Shown piece after piece: positions 4,183 through 59,160 of a DNA stretch of 64,000 nt. The position numbers and the translations under genes were made by a program. The stretch is from Candidatus Zhuqueibacterota bacterium (GTDB taxonomy: Bacteria; Zhuqueibacterota; Zhuqueibacteria; Oceanimicrobiales; Oceanimicrobiaceae). The stretch is from the NCBI GenBank assembly GCA_029262055.1, contig JAJDAD010000091.1, forward strand, positions 1 through 64,000, given 5' to 3'. Position 1 is the stretch's first letter. Each line of letters starts with the position of its first letter. The notes beneath the pieces are model-generated. The model saw only the letters and a program-made list of their open reading frames with translations. It was not told the origin of the DNA and ran no database searches.

Positions 4183-7100
4183 CTAATTGAACAAGTACTT
4201 AATCCCAAGCTGAACCTGCCAGCGGGAATTAAGACCGGGGTCGTCGATAAATGTTTCGGACGGTCCGGTAAAATCAAAGATCGGCCGTTGGGCATTTCCC
4301 TCTTGCTCAAAACGAACCAACCTTAACGGTGAAGTTGCGGCCGCACTTGCGACTTCCCGAACGCCCCAATCAGAACTGATGAGATTGCCGACATTCAGGA
4401 TATCGAGGTTAACTTGAAAAGTGTGGCGCCTGCTGCCCGCATTGATTGCAAAATCCTGCAGGATCCGTAAATCGATGTTGTTGAACCAGGGGTTGAGAGC
4501 GCCAAAGCGTTCGGCGATTTCGCCCCTATTTGAGCTCAAGTAATCATCTTGCCGGATAAATGCTTCAAAAGCTGCCGCATCAGAGGGATCGTCAAAACGA
4601 ATCTCGTTCGGGTCCGTGGCATCAGTGGGGATGTAAATCAGATCATTTGAAAAACCGTCGCCATTGACATCGCCTGAATAGGTGAACGAGTAGCGATTGC
4701 CACCGCCTGCAGTAAATCTGTTGCCCTCAGCGACTTCCACAAAAATCCCGAAATGCGTGGCCAAACTCTCCGACCATTTGTGCGTATAAGTTCCACCGCC
4801 GACAAACCGATGCCGGTTGCCAAACTCAGAATGGCTGAGACTGGGATCGTTGGGATCGCCCTGAATGGGACTTTCTGAAAACAGCACACTGGCAATTTCG
4901 GTTGATTTGAACTTGTTCTTCGCTTCGGTGAAACTGTAGGAAACGCTGGCATTCAAGCCAAAATCAAACGTCTTGCGCAGTTGCCCTGTCAGGTTGTAAT
5001 TGTAACCAGAGCTGGTATTGTCGATGACGTAGACGCCTTCACCCGAACCCGGGAAGAAAGAGTTCAGTTCGTTGGCGCCGGAACCTCCGAAGAAATCCCT
5101 GCCGTCCGGTCCGGCTATTGTACTAACCGGGGCAACTAAATCCGCATTACGCACAACGACCGCATTGATGTCTTTGCCGTACAACGCCTCGAAGGTACCG
5201 AGCAGGCCCCACGGCAGTTTGTGATCGATGGCGAGGTTGGTGGTCCAGACCTGCGGGAACTTAAAATCGGGATCCATTGAGTTCAAATCGAAAGACTGCT
5301 GCAGGATAGAGTCATCGCTCGTCCTGTGATCGTCCGGCACGCTGTTCGGGTCATCCCCGACGGCAAAAAGATTCGGGTTGTTACCGGGATTCGAAATCAC
5401 ATTGCCGATCCAGACAAATGGTACACGACCGGTGAAAATACCACTGCCGCCACGAACCTGAGTTGAGCGGTCGCCATGCACATCCCAGTTAAAGCCAACG
5501 CGCGGTGAAAACAGCGGAGTCGCGCCCGGCAGATCGGCCTGGTCCACGGTCTCGGGACTGTCGTCCTTGTCCAACAACTGTAGTCCTGTCGAGAAAGGAT
5601 TCGCTATCGGGTCTGTGAAATACAAAGGAAAGTCGACTCGCAAGCCGTAGGTCAGATTCAATTTGTCCGTTGCCAGGTATTCATCCTGGACGTAAAACGA
5701 CAACTGACCTACATCGATTTCTTCGCCTTTGAACGGGCCTGATCCAACAATAGAGTTAAAATCATAAAAATCATCGCTGGTCGGGTCAGTGCGCCGGAAG
5801 AAATCATCCAGGGATGAAAATGTTGTGGCGCCCAGAAAATCCAGGAAGTCTGGTAAGAAAAATACGCCATGACGAAAAATATTGAACGAGTTAAAGAATT
5901 GAAAGATTTCAAGGTTGGTACCAACCGTAAAAACATGCTTGCCTGAAAACAGGCTGAAATTGTTGGTGAGTTGGAACACATCCTGATCCAGAATGTTGTG
6001 AATTGAGAACGGCTCGTGTCCGGCTGTGGTGTAAGTTACGCCGTCTTCGGCGATTTCGATGGTCGGGAAATCAGCACTGAAAGGCTTGCGGAAATCGCGA
6101 AATCTGTTGTAGCTGGCAAAAAAGCGATTGGCCCACTTGTCGGAGCGGCTGTTGAGTTCAAGCGCGAAAGAGTGGAGCTCGTTGTTGATCTGGTAGCCGG
6201 AATTCTGGAAAGGCAAACTGGTCTCGTTCGGACCACGGCCTGACGAAAAAGCGCTCAAGACAAAGGGGTGTGGTCCCTGGTCGCGACTCGCGTCCAGAAA
6301 ATTGTAGCGAAACGACAGGTTGTTCTTGTCGTTTATGTTCCAGTCCAGCTTGAGTAGCAACTTCTCGTTATTGGTTTCATGAATGAAATCTTCAAACGGC
6401 CCGGTTTCATAACCGTAGACGTCGCGCAGAACGTCGCTGATTCTCTGCATGGTGGCAGCGTCAACCCGCGACTCACCAGCGGATAGCGTCGCATCGCGGT
6501 TGGCCACAAAGTTTGAACCTGGATCATCTCTGCGTTCCAGCTCACCATTCACAAAAAAGAACAGCTTGTTCTGGATAAGTGGCCCGCTCAAAGTGAAACC
6601 GGACTGATTGAATGAAAGGTCGGGATTTGCGAACACCTCATTGCCGCTGACCGTGTTGCCCTGCAGATCTTCATTTCGGATGAAACTGTAGGCCGATCCC
6701 TTAAACACATTGGTGCCGCTCTTGGTTACCGTGTTGATGTTTGCTCCGGTAAAGCCACCTTCGCGCACGTCAAAAGGCGCCACGGAAACCTGAACTTGCT
6801 CGACTGCGTCAAATGGCACCGGCTCGGCATTACTCTGCCCGCCGGGAGCAGGATCGTCCAGACCGAAGGGATTGTTAAAATAGGAACCGTCCACCGAAAT
6901 ATTGTTGAACAGCCAGTTCCGTCCACCAAAACTCATGTTGCCATCGCTGCGGGGATCGAGTCTGGTCAAATCACGTGTCGAGCGCTTAATGGACGGCAAC
7001 AAAGCAACCTGCTCAGCACTGACCGTGGTAGCGGCGCCCGTGCGATCACTGTTCAGGATCTCATCCTGCTCGGCTGTGACCTGAATCGCACTCATTTGAA

Positions 7101-7464
7101 TGGCTTCTTCGGCCAGGGTAAAATCTACGCGTAGATTCTGGCCCAGACTTACGTAAACGTTTTCCTGCACTTGCGTTTTGAAACCGATGAACGACGCTGA
7201 GATGGTGTAAGGTCCACCGATACGTACATTCGGAATGGTAAAAACGCCCGCGGTGCGCACTGCTGTGCCGTACTGAGTACCCGTAGGTTCATGTACGGCA
7301 ACGACGTTGGCGCCCGGCAGTGCCTCACCGTTTGCATCAGATACAATTCCATTTAAAGCGCCGGTCGTGACACCCTGGGCGTGCAGCCCAGAGCTGGCAG
7401 CAAAAACGCAAAAGAGCACTGCCACGAACCCGAACACCTTGATACCTAGTAGGAATCTGTTCAT
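4183..7464 (-). CDS. Oar-like TonB-dependent outer-membrane receptor (copy 2)
   Basis: A 1093-residue paralogue of the receptor at 72-3362 with the same layout: signal peptide ending near LHAQG, carboxypeptidase-regulatory-like domain (NGIVSDANGEALPGANVVA), plug with GFTGANINTVTKSGTNVFKG, and a barrel ending IKYLFN. The start ATG at 7464 is chosen because GAAGGAGG stands directly before it; an in-frame TTG at 7482 lies upstream of that ribosome site. The two copies share long blocks in the plug and in the last 150 residues and differ most in barrel loops, where ligand contacts usually lie. This suggests duplication followed by divergence in what is bound. Substrate unknown. Confidence 0.9.
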   Translation of the reverse strand: MNRFLLGIKVFGFVAVLFCVFAASSGLHAQGVTTGALNGIVSDANGEALPGANVVAVHEPTGTQYGTAVRTAGVFTIPNVRIGGPYTISASFIGFKTQVQENVYVSLGQNLRVDFTLAEEAIQMSAIQVTAEQDEILNSDRTGAATTVSAEQVALLPSIKRSTRDLTRLDPRSDGNMSFGGRNWLFNNISVDGSYFNNPFGLDDPAPGGQSNAEPVPFDAVEQVQVSVAPFDVREGGFTGANINTVTKSGTNVFKGSAYSFIRNEDLQGNTVSGNEVFANPDLSFNQSGFTLSGPLIQNKLFFFVNGELERRDDPGSNFVANRDATLSAGESRVDAATMQRISDVLRDVYGYETGPFEDFIHETNNEKLLLKLDWNINDKNNLSFRYNFLDASRDQGPHPFVLSAFSSGRGPNETSLPFQNSGYQINNELHSFALELNSRSDKWANRFFASYNRFRDFRKPFSADFPTIEIAEDGVTYTTAGHEPFSIHNILDQDVFQLTNNFSLFSGKHVFTVGTNLEIFQFFNSFNIFRHGVFFLPDFLDFLGATTFSSLDDFFRRTDPTSDDFYDFNSIVGSGPFKGEEIDVGQLSFYVQDEYLATDKLNLTYGLRVDFPLYFTDPIANPFSTGLQLLDKDDSPETVDQADLPGATPLFSPRVGFNWDVHGDRSTQVRGGSGIFTGRVPFVWIGNVISNPGNNPNLFAVGDDPNSVPDDHRTSDDSILQQSFDLNSMDPDFKFPQVWTTNLAIDHKLPWGLLGTFEALYGKDINAVVVRNADLVAPVSTIAGPDGRDFFGGSGANELNSFFPGSGEGVYVIDNTSSGYNYNLTGQLRKTFDFGLNASVSYSFTEAKNKFKSTEIASVLFSESPIQGDPNDPSLSHSEFGNRHRFVGGGTYTHKWSESLATHFGIFVEVAEGNRFTAGGGNRYSFTYSGDVNGDGFSNDLIYIPTDATDPNEIRFDDPSDAAAFEAFIRQDDYLSSNRGEIAERFGALNPWFNNIDLRILQDFAINAGSRRHTFQVNLDILNVGNLISSDWGVREVASAAATSPLRLVRFEQEGNAQRPIFDFTGPSETFIDDPGLNSRWQVQLGIKYLFN

Positions 7465-7926
7465 AGTTGTTGCCTCCTTCAAAATTGTAGGGAAAAAAAA
7501 GAGCCCGGTGTAGATAAGGAAACTTCAACTGAAGTATAGTGATCTCTGCGCGTTTTAGTCAACAAAAAAATCTCAATCCTGTTACATTCATTGGAGTCAA
7601 GTCAAAGGGTTGTCAGTCGCAGTTCGAAGCCGGTCCGGTGAGCAGATCGCGCCGCCTGGCCTAATTCATGACGCTTAGCATAGTTGGGCATAGAATAATA
7701 ATTGCAATATTGAGAACAAATCACGAAGTATTATTAGTATTGAGAGATGTAGCCCTTTGTTATTCCCATAAACAGAATCGGCTTATCACATTAAAAATAA
7801 ATAGTTTATCACTTGTCATGGGACTCTCAGAGGCAAAGGCACACAAATTGCATAAATGCTCGAAAGTCCAGTCACCGGGCGATTCGCCCAAATCCACTAT
7901 CGAGGTCTAAGAGTCAGGAGGAAACA
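7465..7926. other. 462-bp divergent intergenic region between receptor 2 and the porin
   Basis: This region holds the promoters for the minus-strand receptor and for the plus-strand porin. Its right part is AT-rich and contains the sigma-54 promoter at 7837-7852 and the ribosome site CAGGAGGAAACA before 7927. A stretch at 7655-7673 (CCTGGCCTAATTCATGACG) resembles one end of the 163-bp mobile element, but no partner end is seen. No gene was found. Confidence 0.6.
7837..7852 (+). promoter_or_regulatory. Sigma-54 (-24/-12) promoter for the porin gene
   Basis: The sequence AGGCAC-ACAAA-TTGCA matches the sigma-54 consensus TGGCAC-N5-TTGCA at every position but the first, with the required GG-N10-GC spacing (GG at 7838-7839, GC at 7850-7851). 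It lies about 75 bases before the porin start at 7927, so transcription would start near 7864. A sigma-54-dependent activator is encoded at 22571-24193. No upstream activator site was identified. Confidence 0.7.
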
Positions 7927-9165
7927 ATGAACAGGGTCATTGTGACAACGCTGTATTTGGCAATTGCCGCAAGCCTATACGGTCAAACCAAATCACTACC
8001 CGTCACTTTTGACGGACAAATCCGGGTGCGTAGCGAAGCAGACGGGCGCGACTTCAACAACGATTCCGACATCAACACTTACACTCTGATGCGAACACGA
8101 TTTGGTGCACGTGCCAATCCTACAGACGACGTCACGGTCTATGTCCAGATACAGGATTCAAGAGCATTTGGCACCGAACCCAGTACCCTTGCCAGTACGG
8201 CCAACCTGGATGTGCATCAGGCCTACTTCCAGGTCAGCAACCTGTGGGACAAGAACATCGATTTGAAAGTAGGCCGGCAGGAGATGGTTTATGGCAGCCA
8301 AAGACTGATCGGCAATGTCGGGTGGAGCAATACCGGACGCTCGTTTGATGGGGTTAAGCTGAGCTTTGGCAAGAACAATAACTTCGATCTGTTCTCGATG
8401 ATCATTAATGAAGCCAATACGCCGGTGCTGGGGCCGGCAACACCCGCAACCACCGCAGGACGGGAGAGCGCCGACAACAGTTTCGTCGGAGCTTACTATA
8501 AACACCGTCCGAGCTCACGCTATAAACTCGATGTTTACGGCCTGTTTCAATCAAACACACAGAATACGCTCGCCGGTGACAACGAGCTAAACCGCGCCAC
8601 CGTTGGTACGTACAACAAAGGCAAGCTCAACAAGAATCTGGATTTCGAAACAGAGCTGGCGCTGCAACTTGGCAAACGCCGCGGCCAGGATGTATCAGCG
8701 TACCTGCTGAGCGGTTCCGTCGGCTACACCTTCAAAACACAGCGAAAGCCAAGCGTGCGCATCGGCTACGATTATCTCTCAGGTATGGAGTCCGGAGATG
8801 AAGACTTCAAGGCCTTTGATACGCTCTTTGCCACCAACCACAAATTCTACGGCTTCATGGATTATTTTATCAACATCCCGGTGAATGCAAGTGGCCGGGG
8901 CCTGCAGGATTTCATGCTCAAGGCCAAGATACCGTTCGGCAAGAACTGGAATCTCAATGCCCATTATCATAATTTCAGGGCTGCCAAGGGTGCTGAGAAA
9001 AATTTCGGCAACGAGCTCGATCTTGTTTTGAATTATGCCTATAACTCAGTCGCTTCATTTCAGTTCGGCCTGGCCTTTTTCGTGCCTGGCGACCTGGTCG
9101 AGAATTCATTTCTCAATGACGACATTGGTGTTTGGTCGTTTACCACCATGCTGGTCAAGTTTTAA
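7927..9165 (+). CDS. Alginate-export-type outer-membrane porin
   Basis: A 412-residue exported beta-barrel. The start ATG at 7927 follows CAGGAGG; a signal peptide (VTTLYLAIAASLYGQ) precedes the barrel. The opening strands (FDGQIRVRSEADGRDFNND, then TLMRTRFGARANPTDDVTVY) and the segment VQIQDSRAFGTEP are typical of the alginate-export/DUF1302-like porin group, and the chain ends in an aromatic strand (TTMLVKF). Such porins pass small organic or anionic solutes; the true solute is unknown. It has its own sigma-54 promoter and a terminator at 9220-9247, so it is expressed apart from the downstream catabolic operon, though it may supply that operon with substrate. Confidence 0.8.
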   Translation: MNRVIVTTLYLAIAASLYGQTKSLPVTFDGQIRVRSEADGRDFNNDSDINTYTLMRTRFGARANPTDDVTVYVQIQDSRAFGTEPSTLASTANLDVHQAYFQVSNLWDKNIDLKVGRQEMVYGSQRLIGNVGWSNTGRSFDGVKLSFGKNNNFDLFSMIINEANTPVLGPATPATTAGRESADNSFVGAYYKHRPSSRYKLDVYGLFQSNTQNTLAGDNELNRATVGTYNKGKLNKNLDFETELALQLGKRRGQDVSAYLLSGSVGYTFKTQRKPSVRIGYDYLSGMESGDEDFKAFDTLFATNHKFYGFMDYFINIPVNASGRGLQDFMLKAKIPFGKNWNLNAHYHNFRAAKGAEKNFGNELDLVLNYAYNSVASFQFGLAFFVPGDLVENSFLNDDIGVWSFTTMLVKF

Positions 9166-9219
9166 CTTGGTAGTTTGTTGACTCGTGACGACATCTGGAT
9201 TGCTGTAGTATGAACAGGG

Positions 9220-9257
9220 GCCGGAGACAGCTTCGCTTGCCTCCGGCTCAACCTTCT
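9220..9257 (+). terminator. Probable terminator after the porin gene
   Basis: GCCGGAG at 9220-9226 pairs with CTCCGGC at 9241-9247 and is followed by a T-rich stretch. It sits 55 bases after the porin stop and separates the sigma-54-driven porin from the operon that starts at 9403. Confidence 0.6.
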
Positions 9258-9339
9258 TCGTTTTTCGGACAGTTTTCGGTCAAGCACTAACGACTGCCGC
9301 CGACCCGCTCTGATCGTCTTTCCCTTGCCAATTCATGCC

Positions 9340-9402: not shown

Positions 9403-11733
9403 ATGACCGCCTCAGACTCCCCTGCCTTTTCAGAACTCGACGCCGAGACATTTGCCGAAGCACGTTACGGTTTGCAAGCCAAAGTCAAACTGCTCGGTAG
9501 CTACAGCGATCAGAATTTTCTGCTTCGGGACAGGCTGTCTGGCGAGAAATATGTTCTCAAAATCTCAAACGCCGCCGACTCTGCTGATGCCCTCGAAGCC
9601 CAGAACGAGGCCATGGCCAAACTCTCGGAAAATGGCATCAATTGTCCGCAACCAAGAAGCTCGATAAATGAGAAGCGGATCGAGTCCATTTCAAGCCGGA
9701 GCGGTCAACGCTACCTTGCCCGCGTCTTGACCCACGTTCCGGGCACATTCCTGGCCGATGGCACCCGGCACAGTCCACAATTGCTGAAGAATCTGGGTTG
9801 CTATCTGGGGAGGCTCAATTGTATTTTGGCGGATTTCCGGCATAGTGGCACCGTTAGAAACCTGACTTGGGATCTCAAGAATGTGTCTATGCTTCCGCGC
9901 GATCTGGACAACATCAAAGATCCCAAAAAACGCAGTCTCGTCGACTACTTTATCTTACAATTTCAAACCCATGTCGAGCCCACACTTGCAGGACTCCGCA
10001 AAAGTGCAATACACGGAGATGCAAATGATAACAACATCCTGGTAGATTTCGGCCGGCATGAGGTAACGGGCATCATCGACTTCGGTGACCTTGTTTATTC
10101 CACCACGATTTTTGATGTTGCGATCGCTGCAACCTTCACCATGCTAGAACGAAGCAACCCGCTGGCTGCAGCAATTCATTTTGTGAAGGGCTATCACCAG
10201 GCCAATCCGCTCACGGCCGACGAAGTCGACTCATTTTTTTATCTTATCTGTGCCAGAGTTTGCATGAGTGTCACGATGTCAGCGAAACAAAAAGCTCTTG
10301 AACCTGCGAATAGACACATTACTCTTCACGAAGAAAAAATGTGGCGATTACTACAGACCCTCCTATCGATAAATCCGGAAAGGGCTCGCACATTTTTCCG
10401 CCAGGCTTGCGGCCCAACTTCAAGTCCGCGCGTGAGCAGTCTCGGGCATAAAAAGGTCGGCGAGTTACGCAAAAAGCATCTGAATCCTGCACTCGGCCTG
10501 TCTTATGTCACCCCGCTGAAAATCACACGTGGCGCCATGCAGTACCTGTTCGATGAAGAGGGGCAAACATATCTGGATTGCGTCAACAATGTCTGCCACG
10601 TTGGCCACTGTCACCCCCGGGTCGTCAGGGCAATACAAAAGCAAATCGCCACCTTGAATACCAACACACGCTACCTGCACGACACGCTGGTGAAATATGC
10701 TGGAGCCCTGACAGACAGATTTCCCGATCCACTCAATGTTTGCTTCTTTGTAAATTCCGGCAGTGAGGCAAACGATCTGGCCTTGCGCCTGGCATCGGCG
10801 CACACCGGGGGTAGTGACCTGATCGTCATTTCCGGCGCCTACCACGGCAACCTGCACTCACTGATCAACATCAGTCCATACAAATTTGACGGTCCGGGTG
10901 GAGCAGGTTCAGCGCACAATGTGCACCAGGTGGAAATGCCGGACACGTATCGCGGCAAGCACAAGCTGCAGCCCGCGCAGGCTGCGATCGCATACGCAAG
11001 AGAAGTCCAACAGGCGCTGCAGCGCGTCGAACTACGCCGGGGCAAAGTCGCGGCGTTTGTTGCGGAACCACTGCTCGGCTGTGGCGGTCAGATCGTCCTG
11101 CCGCCAACCTACTTGCAACGGGCCTATGACTTTGCCTGGGAAGCCGGCGCCGTCTGCATCGCCGATGAAGTACAGGTCGGTTTCGGTCGCGTCGGATCGC
11201 ATTTCTGGGGGTTTGAAACGCAGGATGTGGTGCCGGACATTGTGACCTTGGGCAAGCCTATCGGCAACGGCCATCCGCTCGGCGCTGTCGTGACCACGCG
11301 CGCAATCGCTGAGTCATTCAACAACGGAATGGAGTATTTTAACACCTTCGGCGGCAACCCCGTTTCCTGCGCCGCCGGCCTCGCTGTGCTCAAAGTAATT
11401 GCGGAAGAAGGCCTGCAAAAAAATGCCGAAGAGGTTGGACACTATCTGAAACAAAGGTTGAACGAGCTCAAGCCGGAGCACAATCTGATCGGCGATGTCC
11501 GCGGCCTGGGCCTGTTCCTCGGCGTTGAGCTGGTGACCGACCGCGAGGCTTTAACCCCCGCCGCAACCGAAGCCGCAGCCGTGGTGGAAGCAATGAAAGA
11601 GCGCGGTATCTTGCTCAGCACGGACGGTCCGCTGCACAATGTCATCAAGATTAAGCCCCCAATCATATTCTCGCGCGCAAACGCCGACCGCCTCGTGGAG
11701 GCCCTCGATGAAGTTCTCGCGCAGCATGGGTAG
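9403..11733 (+). CDS. Hydroxylysine-kinase-like / class III aminotransferase-fold phospholyase fusion
   Basis: A 776-residue two-domain enzyme. Residues 1-340 are an APH/hydroxylysine-kinase-type phosphotransferase with the catalytic loop [16 protein letters not shown] and metal-binding IIDFGD. Residues about 355-776 are a class III aminotransferase fold with the PLP lysine in [13 protein letters not shown] and the cofactor segment [14 protein letters not shown]. The human relatives of the halves are hydroxylysine kinase (AGPHD1/HYKK) and the ammoniophospholyases AGXT2L1/AGXT2L2, which cleave phosphoethanolamine or 5-phosphohydroxylysine. The fusion would phosphorylate an amino alcohol and then eliminate phosphate and ammonia. 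It heads a tight operon with a Na+ symporter and galactokinase, which favours hydroxylysine from galactosylated collagen; ethanolamine is the main alternative. Confidence 0.8.
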
Positions 11734-11781
11734 CGGCGGCAACGGAAGAGCTCGCAAGCACCAAATTAATGAGGCAGGCCA

Positions 11782-13308
11782 GTGGACCTAACACTCTCAG
11801 ACGGAATCGCTTTCATCGCTTTCTTGCTGGCAGTTGTCAGCATCTCGCTCTATGCATCGCGCAAAGAAGAGACCTCGGAAGATTATTTTCTGGCAGGCAG
11901 AAATCTCAGTTGGTGGTTGATCGGCTTTTCTCTGATCGCGTCCAATATTTCGACCGAACATTTTGTCGGCATGGCCGGCGCTGGTTTCGGTGAAGCCGGG
12001 CTTGCCATCGCCAGCTACGAATGGATTGCCGCCATTGCCCTCGTGTTCATCGGACTGTTCCTCTTGCCGCTTTATCTGCGCCTGGGCATCTACACCATGC
12101 CGGAATTCCTGGAACATCGCTACGGCCGGCCGGCCCGCACCCTGATGGCCTTCTACCTGATGCTGGCCTACATCGGTGTCGCCATCGCTGCCGTGCTCTA
12201 CTCCGGGGCGCTAGGGCTGAATGCAATCTTCGGCCTCGACCTTGTTGCGGGTATCTGGCTGATCGGAATTCTGGCCGGCGCCTACACTATTTATGGCGGC
12301 CTGAAAGCGGTGGTCTGGTCCGACTTACTGCAGGGTGTGACTTTGCTCATCGGAGGGCTGGTCGTCACACTCATCGGACTTACACGCGTTGGCGGAATCA
12401 CGGAGTTTCTGTCCGCAAATCAGGACAAATTACATGTTATATTGCCGGCCGACCATCCTGAGATCCCCTGGACCGCATTGTTGTTTGGTATCTGGATTCC
12501 CAACTTCTTTTACTGGGGCTTTAACCAGTTTATCACGCAGCGGACCCTGGGAGCAAAAAGTCTTGCCGAGGGGCAAAAGGGGATTATGCTGGCTGCGAGC
12601 CTCAAACTGGTTATTCCGTTCATAATCGTCTTTCCGGGGATCATGGCCTTTCAGCTCTTCGCCGGCCAGATCGCTAGCCCGGATCAGGCCTACCCGATTT
12701 TGATCAAAAACCTGCTGCCCGCGGGATTCCGGGGTATTTTGTTCGCCGCCTTGTTTGGCGCTGTTATGAGCAGCCTGGACTCCATGTTGAACTCGGCCTC
12801 CACCATCTTTACTATGGACATCTATAAACCACACATCAGACCGGGTGCTTCTCCTGCGCAAATTGTGAAAGTCGGACGAACGGCTACAGCCTTCTTTGTG
12901 ATCGCCGGTTGTCTGATGGCGCCTTTGCCCGGTGAATTTGAGGGAGTATTCAAGTACATTCAGCTTGTCTGGGGTTTCCTGTCACCGGGGATAGTGGCGG
13001 TATTTGTTTTCGGGCTGGTCTTCCGGCGGGCGCCATTAAGCGCCGCAATGAGCGGTCTCATCCTGACAGTCCCGGTTTACGGCCTCTTCCTGTGGCTCCT
13101 GCCTGAGGTGGCGTTTCTCAACCACATGGCCTTCACCTTTGTGATTTTGATTGCGGTTATGGCTCTGGTCACCGTGCGCAACCCGCTGCCTGAGCCGGTC
13201 AGGTTCGAACAGAAATGTGATCTGGATTTACAGCCAAGTCCGTTTGCCAAAAGTCTCGGATTCGCGGTGCTGGTCGCAGCCGGGATGCTTTATATCTATT
13301 TTTGGTAA
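11782..13308 (+). CDS. SGLT-family sodium/solute symporter
   Basis: A 508-residue inner-membrane transporter of the sodium:solute symporter family with about 13-14 hydrophobic helices. Family marks include the early segments EDYFLAGRNLSWWLIGFSLI and ASNISTEHFVGMAGAGFG, and later GFRGILFAALFGAVMSSLDS, the conserved Na2-site helix. The start is GTG at 11782, preceded by GAGG at good spacing. These symporters take up sugars such as galactose or glucose, inositol, amino acids or vitamins; the N-terminal half looks closest to the sugar (vSGLT/SGLT) branch. It lies 48 bases after the kinase-phospholyase gene and 16 bases before galactokinase, so galactose or a galactosyl compound is the likely cargo. 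Confidence 0.85.
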   Translation: MDLTLSDGIAFIAFLLAVVSISLYASRKEETSEDYFLAGRNLSWWLIGFSLIASNISTEHFVGMAGAGFGEAGLAIASYEWIAAIALVFIGLFLLPLYLRLGIYTMPEFLEHRYGRPARTLMAFYLMLAYIGVAIAAVLYSGALGLNAIFGLDLVAGIWLIGILAGAYTIYGGLKAVVWSDLLQGVTLLIGGLVVTLIGLTRVGGITEFLSANQDKLHVILPADHPEIPWTALLFGIWIPNFFYWGFNQFITQRTLGAKSLAEGQKGIMLAASLKLVIPFIIVFPGIMAFQLFAGQIASPDQAYPILIKNLLPAGFRGILFAALFGAVMSSLDSMLNSASTIFTMDIYKPHIRPGASPAQIVKVGRTATAFFVIAGCLMAPLPGEFEGVFKYIQLVWGFLSPGIVAVFVFGLVFRRAPLSAAMSGLILTVPVYGLFLWLLPEVAFLNHMAFTFVILIAVMALVTVRNPLPEPVRFEQKCDLDLQPSPFAKSLGFAVLVAAGMLYIYFW

Positions 13309-13324
13309 ATAGAGTGCCACTTAA

Positions 13325-14476
13325 TTGACGACCGCGAAAATCATAGAACAGGCCTTTTTCACCAAGTTCAAACAAGAGCCCCTGCTCGTACGCTCTCCGG
13401 GTCGCATCAACCTGATTGGAGAACATACCGACTACAATGATGGCCTGGTCCTGCCCGGGGCAATCGACAAAGAACTTGTTTTTGCAGTGGCGCCGGCGGA
13501 TGGAGACACTTGTTGTCTGCATGCCAACGACTTACAGGAGAGCATCGAGTTTGACGCCGGTTGCGGCAAACCTGCTGACCACTCCTGGGCCAGGTATTTG
13601 CAGGCCGTGCTGCAAGAGTTGCAGGGCTACGGCGAATGTGTCACCGCGGTGAACTGCACGTTTGGAGGCAACCTGCCCCCAGGGGCAGGGCTGGCATCTT
13701 CGGCCGCGCTCACAACCGGCTTTGCCCTGGCCCTAAACCAACTCTTCGGGCTCGGGCTCGACCGCGCCACCCTGGCCCGCATCTGCCAGCAAGCTGAACA
13801 CTTGACCGGTACGGATTGCGGTATTATGGACCAGTACGCTGCGCTTTTCGGTCAGCGCAACAACCTGGTCTTACTTGATTGTCGCTCTCTCTCCGTACAG
13901 CACATACCCTTCGTACACGAGGAAGTCCGGATCGTCCTTCTGAATACCGGTGTCACTCACGCCCTGGCGGATTCGGAGTACAATGTGCGCAGGCAGGAAT
14001 GCCGGCAGGGCATCGAGATCCTGCAAAGGTTTATGCCGGATCTGGAGAGTTTGCGTGACGTTACACTTACTACTTTGGAAAAAGCCCGAGAGGAATTGGG
14101 TCCGAAGCTCTACGCCCGCTCCCGGTACATTGTAGAAGAGAACCAACGTGTGCGAACGGCCTGCTCACTCCTGTCATGCGGAGATATCGCCGGCCTGGGG
14201 CAAATCATGTTTGCGACCCATTACGGGTTGAGAGATCTGTACGAAGTAAGCTGCCCGGAGCTGGATTTTCTTGTCGAACTGGCCGCGGACACCGAAGGCG
14301 TAGTCGGAGCCCGCATGATGGGTGGCGGTTTTGGGGGATGCACCATTAACCTGGTCAGACCCGACGCTTCACAAAGATTTCTCGAAAACGCGACCGCGTA
14401 CTTCGGAAATAGCTTTTCTCAAAATCTGCAAGCATACGCCGTGCAGTTGTCTGACGGGGCTTCGGTAATCAGGTAA
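13325..14476 (+). CDS. galK: Galactokinase
   Basis: A 383-residue GHMP kinase converting galactose and ATP to galactose-1-phosphate. All three family motifs are present: PGRINLIGEHTDYNDG near residue 24 (galactokinase signature), the phosphate-binding loop PPGAGLASSAAL near 117, and GARMMGGGFGGCTINLV near 325. The start is an unusual TTG at 13325, 16 bases after the symporter stop, with only a weak ribosome site, suggesting translation coupled to the gene before it. No galT, galE or mutarotase gene lies in the window, so the rest of the Leloir pathway must be elsewhere or the phosphate product is used otherwise. Confidence 0.92.
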   Translation: MTTAKIIEQAFFTKFKQEPLLVRSPGRINLIGEHTDYNDGLVLPGAIDKELVFAVAPADGDTCCLHANDLQESIEFDAGCGKPADHSWARYLQAVLQELQGYGECVTAVNCTFGGNLPPGAGLASSAALTTGFALALNQLFGLGLDRATLARICQQAEHLTGTDCGIMDQYAALFGQRNNLVLLDCRSLSVQHIPFVHEEVRIVLLNTGVTHALADSEYNVRRQECRQGIEILQRFMPDLESLRDVTLTTLEKAREELGPKLYARSRYIVEENQRVRTACSLLSCGDIAGLGQIMFATHYGLRDLYEVSCPELDFLVELAADTEGVVGARMMGGGFGGCTINLVRPDASQRFLENATAYFGNSFSQNLQAYAVQLSDGASVIR

Positions 14477-14506: not shown

Positions 14507-15682
14507 CTATTCAGGGATTCTCAAACTCGGGTCACCCAGAATACTCATTCTCTGAATCGTGCCGTCCGGTATTTGTGACGGGTATCTCCGCTTGACAGCC
14601 AGTACCGCCTCTCCTACGGTCAACGGTTCATTTTTAATGGCTTCAAAGAACCTCCGTGAGAAATCAAAGGTCTGCATTACAAAAGCCTTGCCGGATGGCC
14701 CCACCGACAAAACGGCACCACCATCCTGCAAGGTGATCAGTTCCTCAACGAGGCTCTTCTGTTGCGGATTGTCATAATTCTGCGAAGAGGTCATTGCCAG
14801 CAAAACAAAGGGCCGCTTGTTGGTTGGCAATGAGCCAACATCTGCTACTGAAATAAAGTCCGCCCTGGACCAACTAGAGGAAAAACCGAATCCGTAATAC
14901 ATGAAAAAGACCGCCCCGTGTTCCAAGACCTCTATAACGTTTTCCTTCATCCCGTTGTTGGGAGAATCACTCCTGATGTCAATTCTCGTATAATCATCAA
15001 AATCAAGTCCAGATCCCGAAAACAGTCTTGAGACAAGTTTCTCAAAAACATTGTTGAACTCTGCATCGGCATCCACAAGAAAAAGGCCTTCCTTACTATA
15101 GATATCTCCAACGCTTCCATTTTCGAATTCGAGACTCTTATCGATTAAACTCTGAAGTTCTGTCCGGTTGGATACCGGAAGACGTCCAAGCGACACGTCA
15201 GGCAAAGTATCCTCTTCATTCTTGTTTATTGCGTACAAATCGTCAAGGGAAACGAATTCCTCGTCCGCTTCTACGCGGCCTGCCAGGCTGGATGGAATTT
15301 GAAATGTGGGAACAAACGATGTATTCCCCACCAGCAGAACATATTTTGGGTGTGGCTCCTGCCAGAATGAAAGAGTGTAGCTAATAAAATCTCTGATTCC
15401 CTCCTGCTTTGAAGTAACGTTTGGGAAGGCGTCTGCAATCTGACGTAAGCTGACGGTGGTCACAGCAAACCCCATTTCGTCCTTTTGAGCTTCAAAGCGT
15501 CCGAGGTTACTCTTGAAAATTTCCGGTGTGATGATCAGGTAATCAGACTGGTTTGCGGTATCCCTGAGTGGCAGAGGCTCGGGGGCAGTTGGGTTATCAC
15601 CGCAATTGCTAGCCACCAACGGTAGCATAATGAAGATGCAAAAGAGGATAATCCTGGACGAGGTAGATGGTCTGAAATTCAT
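14507..15682 (-). CDS. Gingipain-fold (peptidase C25-like) lipoprotein, probably catalytically inactive
   Basis: A 391-residue exported protein starting at ATG 15682 behind AGGAG. A hydrophobic signal with Cys27 (PLVASNC) suggests a lipoprotein, although Asn at -1 is unusual. The body follows the C25 pattern: DYLIITPEIF at the start of the fold, HPKYVLLVGNTSFVPT, DVSLGRLPVSNRTEL, and the closing RMSILGDPSLRIP. Where active members have YIGHGS and a TC or SC dyad, this protein has MYYGFGFS and LLAMTSSQNYDNP, so both catalytic His and Cys appear lost. It could be a binding or scaffold pseudo-protease related to PorU/gingipains. It is the last gene of a minus-strand run of exported proteins and converges with galK. 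Confidence 0.7.
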   Translation of the reverse strand: MNFRPSTSSRIILFCIFIMLPLVASNCGDNPTAPEPLPLRDTANQSDYLIITPEIFKSNLGRFEAQKDEMGFAVTTVSLRQIADAFPNVTSKQEGIRDFISYTLSFWQEPHPKYVLLVGNTSFVPTFQIPSSLAGRVEADEEFVSLDDLYAINKNEEDTLPDVSLGRLPVSNRTELQSLIDKSLEFENGSVGDIYSKEGLFLVDADAEFNNVFEKLVSRLFSGSGLDFDDYTRIDIRSDSPNNGMKENVIEVLEHGAVFFMYYGFGFSSSWSRADFISVADVGSLPTNKRPFVLLAMTSSQNYDNPQQKSLVEELITLQDGGAVLSVGPSGKAFVMQTFDFSRRFFEAIKNEPLTVGEAVLAVKRRYPSQIPDGTIQRMSILGDPSLRIPE

Positions 15683-56829: not shown

Positions 56830-59160
56830 TTATTGTTCCTGTAAGTCCGGCCGCAGCCTGACAAAAACCGGCTCACGGTAAGTGCCGTTCTTAGTTATGG
56901 AGGCGTACTCAATCTCACAATACAGCCTGGGCTGAAGCCAGACGGTATTCGCGTTGTCGGGTGGTTTCTCCTCGACCGGACGCTTTGCGGTTTCTATTTC
57001 CTGAACCGCGCTAAAAACGCTCTTCAGCAGATTGCTGTCGAACCCCGTTCCGACTTTGCCGCGATAGATGAGCTGGGCCTCATTTCGCTGTGCCAATTGC
57101 AGCGCGCCGAACGCTGTCGCGCGCCCGCCTCTACCTTTGGTATATCCGATGATCAGACATTCCGTGGTCTGACGCGCCTTGATTTTGTACCAGTTCCCGC
57201 TGCGTTTACCGGGCAGGTATTTGCTGGTACAGTCCTTGGCGACAATTCCTTCCAGCCCCATCTGGCGGGATGCCTCAAACAATTGCTTACCGGTCGTCAC
57301 GTATTCGCTTACACGATACGGCGTGTCTCTCTTGATAGTATCCGTCATCCACTCGCGCCGACGTATCAGCGGATCGTTGGTCAGGTGGCGGCCATCCAGA
57401 TAGAGACAGTCGAAGATGTAACATACGACCGGATTCGTTTGCCGGGCGCGTTCAATTGCGCCTGCGCTACGCAGCTGCATCCGCTTGATCACCTTCCTGA
57501 AATCCGGGCGTCCAGCCGGGTCGAGGCAGACTATCTCGGCATCAAATAACGCCGACGTCGCCCGAAAGGCCTGCTCCGGCACCAACAGCTCAGGAAAACT
57601 GTCGGTGATGTCGTTCTGATTACGGCTTCGAATACGTAACTTGCCTTCGTCCAGGGAAAACAAAGCCCTAATGCCATCCCATTTCACCTCATAGATGTAG
57701 TTTTCCCCGACGGGGGGATTCCTTAAACTCTGTGCGAGCATCGGATCTATTTCATCCTGCAGCCAATCGATCTGGGAAGTGTCCAGACGCTCCAAAAGCC
57801 ACTCGTTTCCCTTTGTCTGATAAATTCTGTACTCGGCGCTTAACTCCTTACTCTGCAGGCGAAAATACATGCCGTCCTTCTTTTTCTTGGTCACCTCGTA
57901 CTTTCCGAGCGCGTATATCCACATCATCCCCCCGCCGTATTCACCCTTAGGGATTTCACCCTCAAACGTCAGGTATTTCATAGGGTGATCTTCAGTCTGC
58001 ACTGCCAGCCGCTTGATGCCCGGCCGGGGTGGCAGGCCGCGCGGGACGGCCCATGATTTGAGTGTGCCATCCTGCTCCAGGCGTAAATCGTAGTGCAACC
58101 GGCTGGCGTGATGCCGATGAACCACAAAACCGTTCCCTGCTCCGACAGCCACCTCGGCACTGGGTTCAGGCGTGCGGGAAAAGCTGCGCTTCTTTGCATA
58201 AACATCCAACGCTTCGGGCGTCTTTCTCTTCCCTGAGGGGGGTAAGCTGACAGCTTGCGGCGCTGCAGCAGGTTTCTCTGTGTGTAAATGCGCAGCGTAG
58301 GCCCCGATCCCTTCCCATGCATCGCCTTCCTTGATGACTCGCTCAACAACATTCCGTACATCAAACTCAGCGGGGCTTTGCACCCGTTCTAATTCTTCCC
58401 ATGTCAGCGGCATAGAGACCGGCGCACTGCCACTGCCGCGCAAACTGTACGGCGAGACGATCGATTGTCCGGCCCGGTTACGGTAAATGTCGATGAGTAT
58501 TTTCCCTTTGCGCGCATCTTTCTTGATGTGTAAAGTCGTGGATTGGCTGTTTGCGGACACAAAGGGCTTGGCCATGACGAGCGCAGCTTCAAACACGGTA
58601 GGGAAGTCCCATTTTGCCTGAACCGGTACGACAATGTGCAATCCTTTGCCACCGGTCGTCTTGACAAATGGAAAGTAACCATACTGTTCTATATGCTGCT
58701 TCAGCCTAAAAGCAACTTCCTGCACACGCCCGAAGACCTCACCTTCCGGCGGATCCAGGTCGAAAACGAAATAGTCAGCATGCTGAAAATGCGGGCTGCG
58801 GCAATGATACTGGTGAATCTCGAGGCAGGCTAAATTCGCCAGCCAAACCAGCGAAGCATCCTCGGTCGCGATAATGTAGTCAGGGTCCTTGCCTTCACCG
58901 AGTTTAACATGCTCCAGCCAGTCAGGTGTCCAACCTGGTCTGTTCTTCTGGAAAAACCGTTCGCCCGCCACACCATCAGGAAAACGCACCAACGACAATG
59001 GACGCCCCTTAATGTGACTTAAGATAGTCGGCGCGATTTTAAGATAGTACTGGACCACCTCGGCCTTAACCACCCCGGTTTCCGGGAAGAGAATCTTTTG
59101 CAGATTCGATAGATCGATCCTGCGCTTCCCAACCTGTACAAGCTGTGACGTTCTGGCCAT
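56830..59160 (-). CDS. ligD: Multifunctional DNA ligase D
   Basis: A 776-residue end-joining enzyme in the order polymerase - phosphoesterase - ligase. The primase/polymerase domain (about 1-300) has YFVFDLDPPEG with the metal-binding DxD and KTTGGKGLHIVVPV. The 3'-phosphoesterase (about 335-480) has FVVHRHHASRLHYDLRLE and GEYGGGMMWIY. The ATP-dependent ligase (about 485-776) has the nucleotide-accepting lysine in YEVKWDGIRALF, DAEIVCLD, EGIVAKDCTSKY and WYKIKARQT, and a C-terminal OB domain. With Ku it repairs double-strand breaks. All key residues look intact. It is the first gene of the operon with the Haem_bd, ku and TPR genes. Confidence 0.95.
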   Translation of the reverse strand: MARTSQLVQVGKRRIDLSNLQKILFPETGVVKAEVVQYYLKIAPTILSHIKGRPLSLVRFPDGVAGERFFQKNRPGWTPDWLEHVKLGEGKDPDYIIATEDASLVWLANLACLEIHQYHCRSPHFQHADYFVFDLDPPEGEVFGRVQEVAFRLKQHIEQYGYFPFVKTTGGKGLHIVVPVQAKWDFPTVFEAALVMAKPFVSANSQSTTLHIKKDARKGKILIDIYRNRAGQSIVSPYSLRGSGSAPVSMPLTWEELERVQSPAEFDVRNVVERVIKEGDAWEGIGAYAAHLHTEKPAAAPQAVSLPPSGKRKTPEALDVYAKKRSFSRTPEPSAEVAVGAGNGFVVHRHHASRLHYDLRLEQDGTLKSWAVPRGLPPRPGIKRLAVQTEDHPMKYLTFEGEIPKGEYGGGMMWIYALGKYEVTKKKKDGMYFRLQSKELSAEYRIYQTKGNEWLLERLDTSQIDWLQDEIDPMLAQSLRNPPVGENYIYEVKWDGIRALFSLDEGKLRIRSRNQNDITDSFPELLVPEQAFRATSALFDAEIVCLDPAGRPDFRKVIKRMQLRSAGAIERARQTNPVVCYIFDCLYLDGRHLTNDPLIRRREWMTDTIKRDTPYRVSEYVTTGKQLFEASRQMGLEGIVAKDCTSKYLPGKRSGNWYKIKARQTTECLIIGYTKGRGGRATAFGALQLAQRNEAQLIYRGKVGTGFDSNLLKSVFSAVQEIETAKRPVEEKPPDNANTVWLQPRLYCEIEYASITKNGTYREPVFVRLRPDLQEQ

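Follow-up and report, generated by a model that had tools for sequence, protein, structure and literature searches.

Why should a gene for a kinase fused to a phospholyase be packed together with genes for a Na+ symporter of the sugar type and a galactokinase, and what compound could engage all three products? The question is raised by a candidate three-gene operon at positions 9403 to 14476 of the 64,000-nucleotide stretch (the window) that begins contig JAJDAD010000091.1 of a Candidatus Zhuqueibacterota bacterium (GenBank assembly GCA_029262055.1). An earlier note on this DNA proposed galactosyl-hydroxylysine, as it occurs in collagen, as the joint substrate. Comparative genomics strongly supports this idea for the enzyme family, and for the window operon itself it is a tentative leading reading.

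Hydrolases and aminoadipate enzymes beside kinase/lyase genes

A scan of genome contigs gave 583 confirmed relatives of the kinase/lyase, and the best 80 of these provided the homologous loci, which were annotated by open reading frame (ORF) calling, clustering of neighbors, and annotation of cluster representatives. The earlier note had suggested comparing homologous neighborhoods for beta-galactosidases, and enzymes of glycoside hydrolase families 2 or 42 (GH2 or GH42) are indeed encoded beside the kinase/lyase and on the same strand in 28 of the 80 loci. The nearest GH2, GH42, or GH63 gene is within 440 bp of the kinase/lyase in 27 of these, the exception being L092, in which a GH31 gene lies in between; we note that this GH31 enzyme (L092, 7730 to 9988) occupies the spot of GH63 in other loci. 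A YgjK-like GH63 enzyme is also present in 23 of the 28 galactosidase loci and missing from five, and SusC and SusD are both present in 22. A search with one GH63 representative returned YgjK as the nearest solved relative, and the YgjK catalytic base, which we take to be Glu727 in the Escherichia coli protein, is conserved in all but one of the 24 GH63 sequences (23 of 24); the remaining one, from L032, is truncated where its contig stops. Mutants of YgjK are able to form Glc(alpha1-2)Gal. An excerpt of PMC7263609 mentions YgjK bound to glucose and to galactose at subsite +1.

Aminoadipate enzymes recur in the same loci. HglS (PF07063, 2-oxoadipate dioxygenase/decarboxylase; 219 bits for the scanned representative) is encoded in 11 of the 28 galactosidase loci, and eight have a gene that belongs to one sequence cluster of aldehyde dehydrogenases, of the L-piperidine-6-carboxylate (P6C) type, three of these genes being cut by the locus end. 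The representative of this cluster scores 838 bits with NF050084, L-piperidine-6-carboxylate dehydrogenase (cut-off, 730), and matches ALDH7A1/antiquitin structures. At least one of the two enzymes is encoded close to the kinase/lyase in 13 of these galactosidase loci and, by profile, in none of the other 52. Weak tblastn matches were not counted, namely, to an aldehyde dehydrogenase in L078 (122 bits), GH2 in L073 (86 bits), and GH63 in L091 (82 bits), and hydrolases could be missed in 12 of the 52 hydrolase-free loci because these are shorter than 12 kb. No 2-aminoadipate transaminase was identified in the loci. Several of the genes are fused, as in the GH2-GH63 protein of L080 (by profile also L081), the reverse GH63-GH2 order in L105, and the kinase-lyase of L070 with HglS at the C terminus of the same protein. 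The hydrolase linkage is also seen outside the Bacteroidota clade, in L105, L110, and G038/L032 (GH63 only).

Glucosyl-galactosyl-hydroxylysine (Glc-Gal-Hyl) could be turned into 2-hydroxyglutarate through steps that include a glucosidase, a galactosidase, a kinase/phospholyase, P6C dehydrogenase, and HglS. The unit present in collagen is Glc(alpha1-2)Gal(beta1-5)Hyl (table of PMC8537180). It is thus quite likely that several bacterial phyla have a dedicated system for this collagen O-glycan unit, which would comprise import by SusCD, a GH63 glucosidase, a GH2 or GH42 galactosidase, a hydroxylysine kinase/phospholyase in one polypeptide, P6C dehydrogenase, and HglS. Ethanolamine as the substrate would account for neither P6C dehydrogenase nor HglS. 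Every one of these enzyme types is already known; our literature search found no described bacterial locus with a chain from a collagen-type disaccharide toward central metabolism, and nothing joining hydroxylysine with a polysaccharide utilization locus or SusD.

Other relatives have neighbors without a clear substrate hint, including the loci in which an M23 domain stands between kinase and lyase (L034, L036, and L038), the Anaerolineae and KSB1 loci, and three rhizobial plasmid loci (by profile matches only). A GH113 protein is encoded nearby in L036, and a PL28 ulvan lyase is upstream of an Algibacter fusion (L126, 5800 to 9300). Flavobacterium gillisiae carries two fusions, one with GH42 and GH63 (L065) and one without such hydrolases nearby (L057). 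In a Gemmatimonadetes contig (L123, 1341 to 3676) the kinase and lyase each have a gene of their own, the two genes overlapping, and the lyase is 70% identical to that of the window.

The three genes of the candidate operon

The fusion gene (9403 to 11733, plus strand, ATG start) codes for a kinase/phospholyase fusion of 776 amino acids, an assignment supported by the ORF call, Pfam, NCBIfam, comparison with PDB 6TOR, and the 80 homologous loci. The kinase domain (9403 to 10440, about residues 1 to 346) is of the APH-type amino-alcohol kinase kind, with a Pfam APH match of 97 bits (residues 30 to 261) and the intact motifs IHGDANDNN at residue 203 and IDFGD at residue 225; these show the APH family, and phosphorylation of 5-hydroxylysine is a prediction. 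The phospholyase domain (10450 to 11733, about residues 350 to 774) matches Aminotran_3 (277 bits, residues 371 to 772) and carries the motif IADEVQ at residue 586 and the pyridoxal phosphate (PLP) lysine, Lys618, aligned with K268 of GabT. Class III PLP ammonia-phospholyases of the ETNPPL/PHYKPL kind have the PLP lysine, whereas two residues of GABA aminotransferase, the switch Glu and the Arg that contacts the substrate, are replaced in them. In the alignment with E. coli GabT, Cys560 replaces Glu211 and Lys749 replaces Arg398, so both aminotransferase residues are lost and the fusion has the features of this class.

The nearest solved relative of the lyase part is an ethanolamine-phosphate phospho-lyase (6TOR, 505 bits), which we take to be human ETNPPL and which likewise has Cys in place of the switch Glu and Lys in place of Arg398 of GabT; it differs in that the solved chain of 499 residues has no kinase domain and is named for phosphoethanolamine. 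The human hydroxylysine pair consists of an APH-type kinase and a class III PLP phospholyase in two separate proteins; the window protein would unite the same two reaction types in one polypeptide. The two human proteins are HYKK/AGPHD1 (hydroxylysine kinase) and PHYKPL/AGXT2L2 (phosphohydroxylysine lyase), described by Veiga-da-Cunha et al. (2012) as cited in an excerpt of PMC9283133. The kinase-M23-lyase proteins share the same kinase and lyase domains, and their lyase parts are 60 to 66% identical to that of the window in relatives of the window genome; they differ in the M23 domain between kinase and lyase, present in all five proteins scanned and absent from the window protein. The nearest NCBIfam models, NF004799 and NF004800, bear the names "aminotransferase" and "hypothetical protein", and the window protein scores 957 and 709 bits, below their cut-offs of 1128 and 973.

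The second gene (11782 to 13308, plus strand, GTG start, 508 amino acids) codes for a vSGLT-like Na+/hexose symporter, with 246 bits to Pfam SSF and 445 bits to NCBIfam PRK10484, "solute:sodium symporter family transporter" (cut-off, 401). Its nearest solved relatives are 2XQ2 and 3DH4 (vSGLT, the Na+/galactose symporter of Vibrio parahaemolyticus), at 363 and 350 bits. An excerpt of PMC4270436 lists the vSGLT galactose-site residues N64, Q69, E88, N260, Y263, K294, and Q428, to which N55, H60, E80, N241, Y244, K275, and Q394 of the window symporter align; six of these seven listed residues are therefore identical, Q69 being replaced by His60, and position 294 is Ala in the comparison chain 2XQ2. 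These residues agree with the sugar-type assignment made in the earlier note, and by them the protein looks like a carrier of free hexose rather than of galactosyl-hydroxylysine.

The third gene, galK (13325 to 14476, plus strand, TTG start, 383 amino acids), codes for a galactokinase by TIGR00131 gal_kin (289 bits; cut-off, 226.65), with Pfam matches to GalKase_gal_bdg (PF10509, 72 bits), GHMP_N, and GHMP_C and intact motifs GRINLIGEHTDYNDG at residue 26, GGNLPPGAGLASSAAL at 114, and GGGFGGC at 333. Its nearest solved relatives are the galactokinase structures 6Q8Z and 1WUU (246 bits), presumably human galactokinase, and no other galactokinase match in the 5.7-Mb genome, an assembly of 114 contigs, reaches E≤1e-40. 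A second GHMP kinase on contig C16 has a weaker galactokinase signature (41 bits); there (L049, 1 to 4641), a symporter end, the GHMP kinase, a nucleotidyl transferase, and a GH109-like oxidoreductase are encoded in a row.

The ORF, Pfam, NCBIfam, and motif checks bear out the earlier description of three packed genes with intact motifs, all on the plus strand and separated by 48 bp (fusion to symporter) and 16 bp (symporter to galK), and from this spacing we infer a single transcript. An Alginate_exp porin gene (7813 to 9165, plus strand) was considered as an operon member and left out because a terminator-like hairpin with a T-rich tail (9218 to 9260, plus strand) stands between it and the fusion gene; the stem (9218 to 9249) folds at -19.8 kcal/mol (RNAfold) and was not listed by the automatic terminator scan. 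Further upstream is a minus-strand gene (4183 to 7482) for an outer-membrane barrel protein with a carboxypeptidase-regulatory domain, and a Peptidase C25/PorU-like protein gene (14507 to 15682, minus strand) is tail to tail with galK. A DNA ligase D (nonhomologous end joining; 56830 to 59160, minus strand) is also 776 amino acids long, equal to the fusion by coincidence.

Substrate of the window fusion

Several observations weigh against carrying the hydroxylysine reading over from the family to the window, and they come from the lyase tree, gene linkage, and the genome. The tree comprises 96 lyase-bearing proteins; L111 and L122, at which the ORF calling picked other frames, are in neither the tree nor the residue count, and L131 was left out as it is on the same contig as G009:C57. 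Among the hydrolase-linked copies, 26 of 29 fall in one clade of 36 rows. The window fusion is in another clade of 32 rows (SH-aLRT, 98), of which L105 is the one hydrolase-linked member, the others being kinase-M23-lyase relatives and fusions without GH2, GH42, or GH63 hydrolases. At position 560, Val is present in 28 of the 29 hydrolase-linked copies, with L110 (Cys) as the exception; the 58 other copies have Cys (40, the window included), Val (15), or another residue (3). The window therefore has the residue of 6TOR rather than Val, which human PHYKPL presumably bears at the switch position. Val alone is no marker of a hydroxylysine enzyme because nine lone class III proteins from the taxonomic class of the window organism (L041 to L048 and L051, outside the count) all have Val and are without these hydrolases. 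Its presence in L105 and L032/L033, outside the Bacteroidota clade, suggests a substrate switch. When Val560 and hydrolase linkage were tested for association with the tree taken into account, the median p was 1 with linkage as the first trait and 0.5 with the residue first, and we treat the association as descriptive only because there are too few independent changes in the tree.

Linkage of the symporter together with galK to the fusion in homologues, the lack of which the earlier note had itself named as evidence against its proposal, was not found. No galK is within the flanks examined of any of the 80 loci. Symporters like that of the window are present in three (L088, L105, and L110), each with GH2 and the kinase/lyase and 33 to 37% identical to that of the window; that of L130 (25%) was not counted. 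In G036, the genome of a relative, a symporter gene (55% identical) and galK (46%) stand side by side with an epimerase gene after them, whereas the fusion has no match there at E≤1e-60. Given this pair and the absence of galK from the 80 loci, the symporter and galK look like a module of their own, here joined to the fusion. Full-length two-domain copies at E≤1e-150 among 82 genomes of the phylum are restricted, besides the window, to G038 and G043, with no galK or symporter near these fusions within their 8.0- and 15.6-kb contigs; relatives in the family of the window genome (G007, G009, and G010) have long fusion versions.

The genome has few of the partners found in other loci. The earlier note had remarked on a missing galactosidase, and no GH2 or GH42 is among the six neighboring proteins scanned; three GH2 matches are all on other contigs, and GH42 was outside the genome-wide search. 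GH63 is likewise absent from the neighbors scanned, and across the genome PF22422 (GH63-like) gives three matches, the best at only 52.7 bits; the protein with this best match reaches 22.6 bits against the loci's GH63 profile. There is no HglS match and no P6C dehydrogenase in the genome, the best aldehyde dehydrogenase reaching 396 bits against the cut-off of 730, with other aldehyde dehydrogenases giving eight matches at E≤1e-30. An M9 collagenase match is below cut-off, a GalT-like protein encoded beside a starch synthase is a weak match, at 59 bits against a cut-off of 22, and no hydroxylysine transporter was identified. P6C dehydrogenase is over cut-off in 39 of the 50 genomes that hold 50 of the 80 loci, comprising 16 of 17 hydrolase-linked genomes (L105 is below, at 704 of 730 bits) and 23 of 33 others, with F. 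gillisiae counted among the latter though it also holds L065. This co-occurrence was dropped as support because 29 of 63 genomes in the window's class have the enzyme regardless of the fusion (2 of 10 with it and 27 of 53 without).

Many of these features are accommodated by a serious alternative, which we regard as only somewhat less likely than the leading reading: the fusion would be an ethanolamine (or 1-amino-2-propanol) kinase/phospholyase forming acetaldehyde (or propanal), with the symporter and galK an ordinary uptake pair co-transcribed by chance. Amino-alcohol kinase/phospholyase routes are part of the background from Erwinia, which our literature search did not confirm. The likeness to 6TOR (505 bits, against 468 for the lyase part of hydrolase-linked L085, from Chitinophaga pinensis), the shared Cys, the G036 pair with its epimerase and without a fusion, and a genome that lacks HglS and P6C dehydrogenase yet has eight other aldehyde dehydrogenase matches are all consistent with it. 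However, the recurrent metabolic neighbor clusters in the 80 loci point to galactosides and aminoadipate, L110 is of the Cys type yet is encoded beside GH2 and a symporter, and no ethanolamine-specific gene was recognized beside the window copy, no family search for one having been made. An unlikely third reading keeps the operon coherent but takes the substrate of the fusion to be an amino alcohol or amino acid other than hydroxylysine, linked to galactose in an unrecognized galactoside; this accounts for the galactose genes and the absent aminoadipate enzymes together, but no abundant compound of this kind could be named, and the hydrolase-linked relatives point to hydroxylysine.

We still favor a hydroxylysine galactoside for the window, mainly because galactose-type genes beside the kinase/lyase recur across the tree, in the Bacteroidota clade, L105, L110, and the window. 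The joint substrate proposed in the earlier note is thus strongly supported for the family by galactosidases, glucosidases, and aminoadipate enzymes, and is weakened for the window by the unlinked galK, the missing HglS and P6C dehydrogenase, and Cys560. Hydroxylysine is our leading guess for the fusion substrate, held at somewhat less than even confidence, with ethanolamine-type amino alcohols close behind. We propose, with similar reserve, that the operon may handle both halves of galactosyl-5-hydroxylysine, with the glycosidic bond cut elsewhere. The symporter would import free galactose, as predicted from the vSGLT residues listed in the excerpt, and GalK would phosphorylate it, by family assignment. 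From the human pathway and the operons of homologues, the fusion is predicted to phosphorylate 5-hydroxylysine and then to remove ammonia and phosphate together, giving 2-aminoadipate 6-semialdehyde. The bond could be cut by a LacZ-type GH2 encoded on contig C2, which is 46.7% identical to the GH2 of L110. This enzyme is 42 to 47% identical to the GH2s of the loci and 36% to E. coli LacZ, but it was rejected as proof, the comparison having covered no broad LacZ sample.

Implications for the enzyme family

The window operon may be a cut-down form, limited to the galactose end, of the larger Glc-Gal-Hyl loci of Bacteroidota and a few other lineages, a minimal variant in which the kinase/phospholyase is kept and galactose uptake and phosphorylation are added. 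Taken whole, the statement that a collagen glycan system is present in several phyla, with the window operon as its minimal variant, is one that we hold at somewhat less than even confidence. If real, the collagen glycan system would provide a bacterial route for hydroxylysine and a function for an enzyme family to which NCBIfam models with uninformative names are the closest, and would hint at what YgjK-like GH63 enzymes do in nature. Named isolates are the source of several of the loci from Chitinophaga, Pedobacter, and Flavobacterium.

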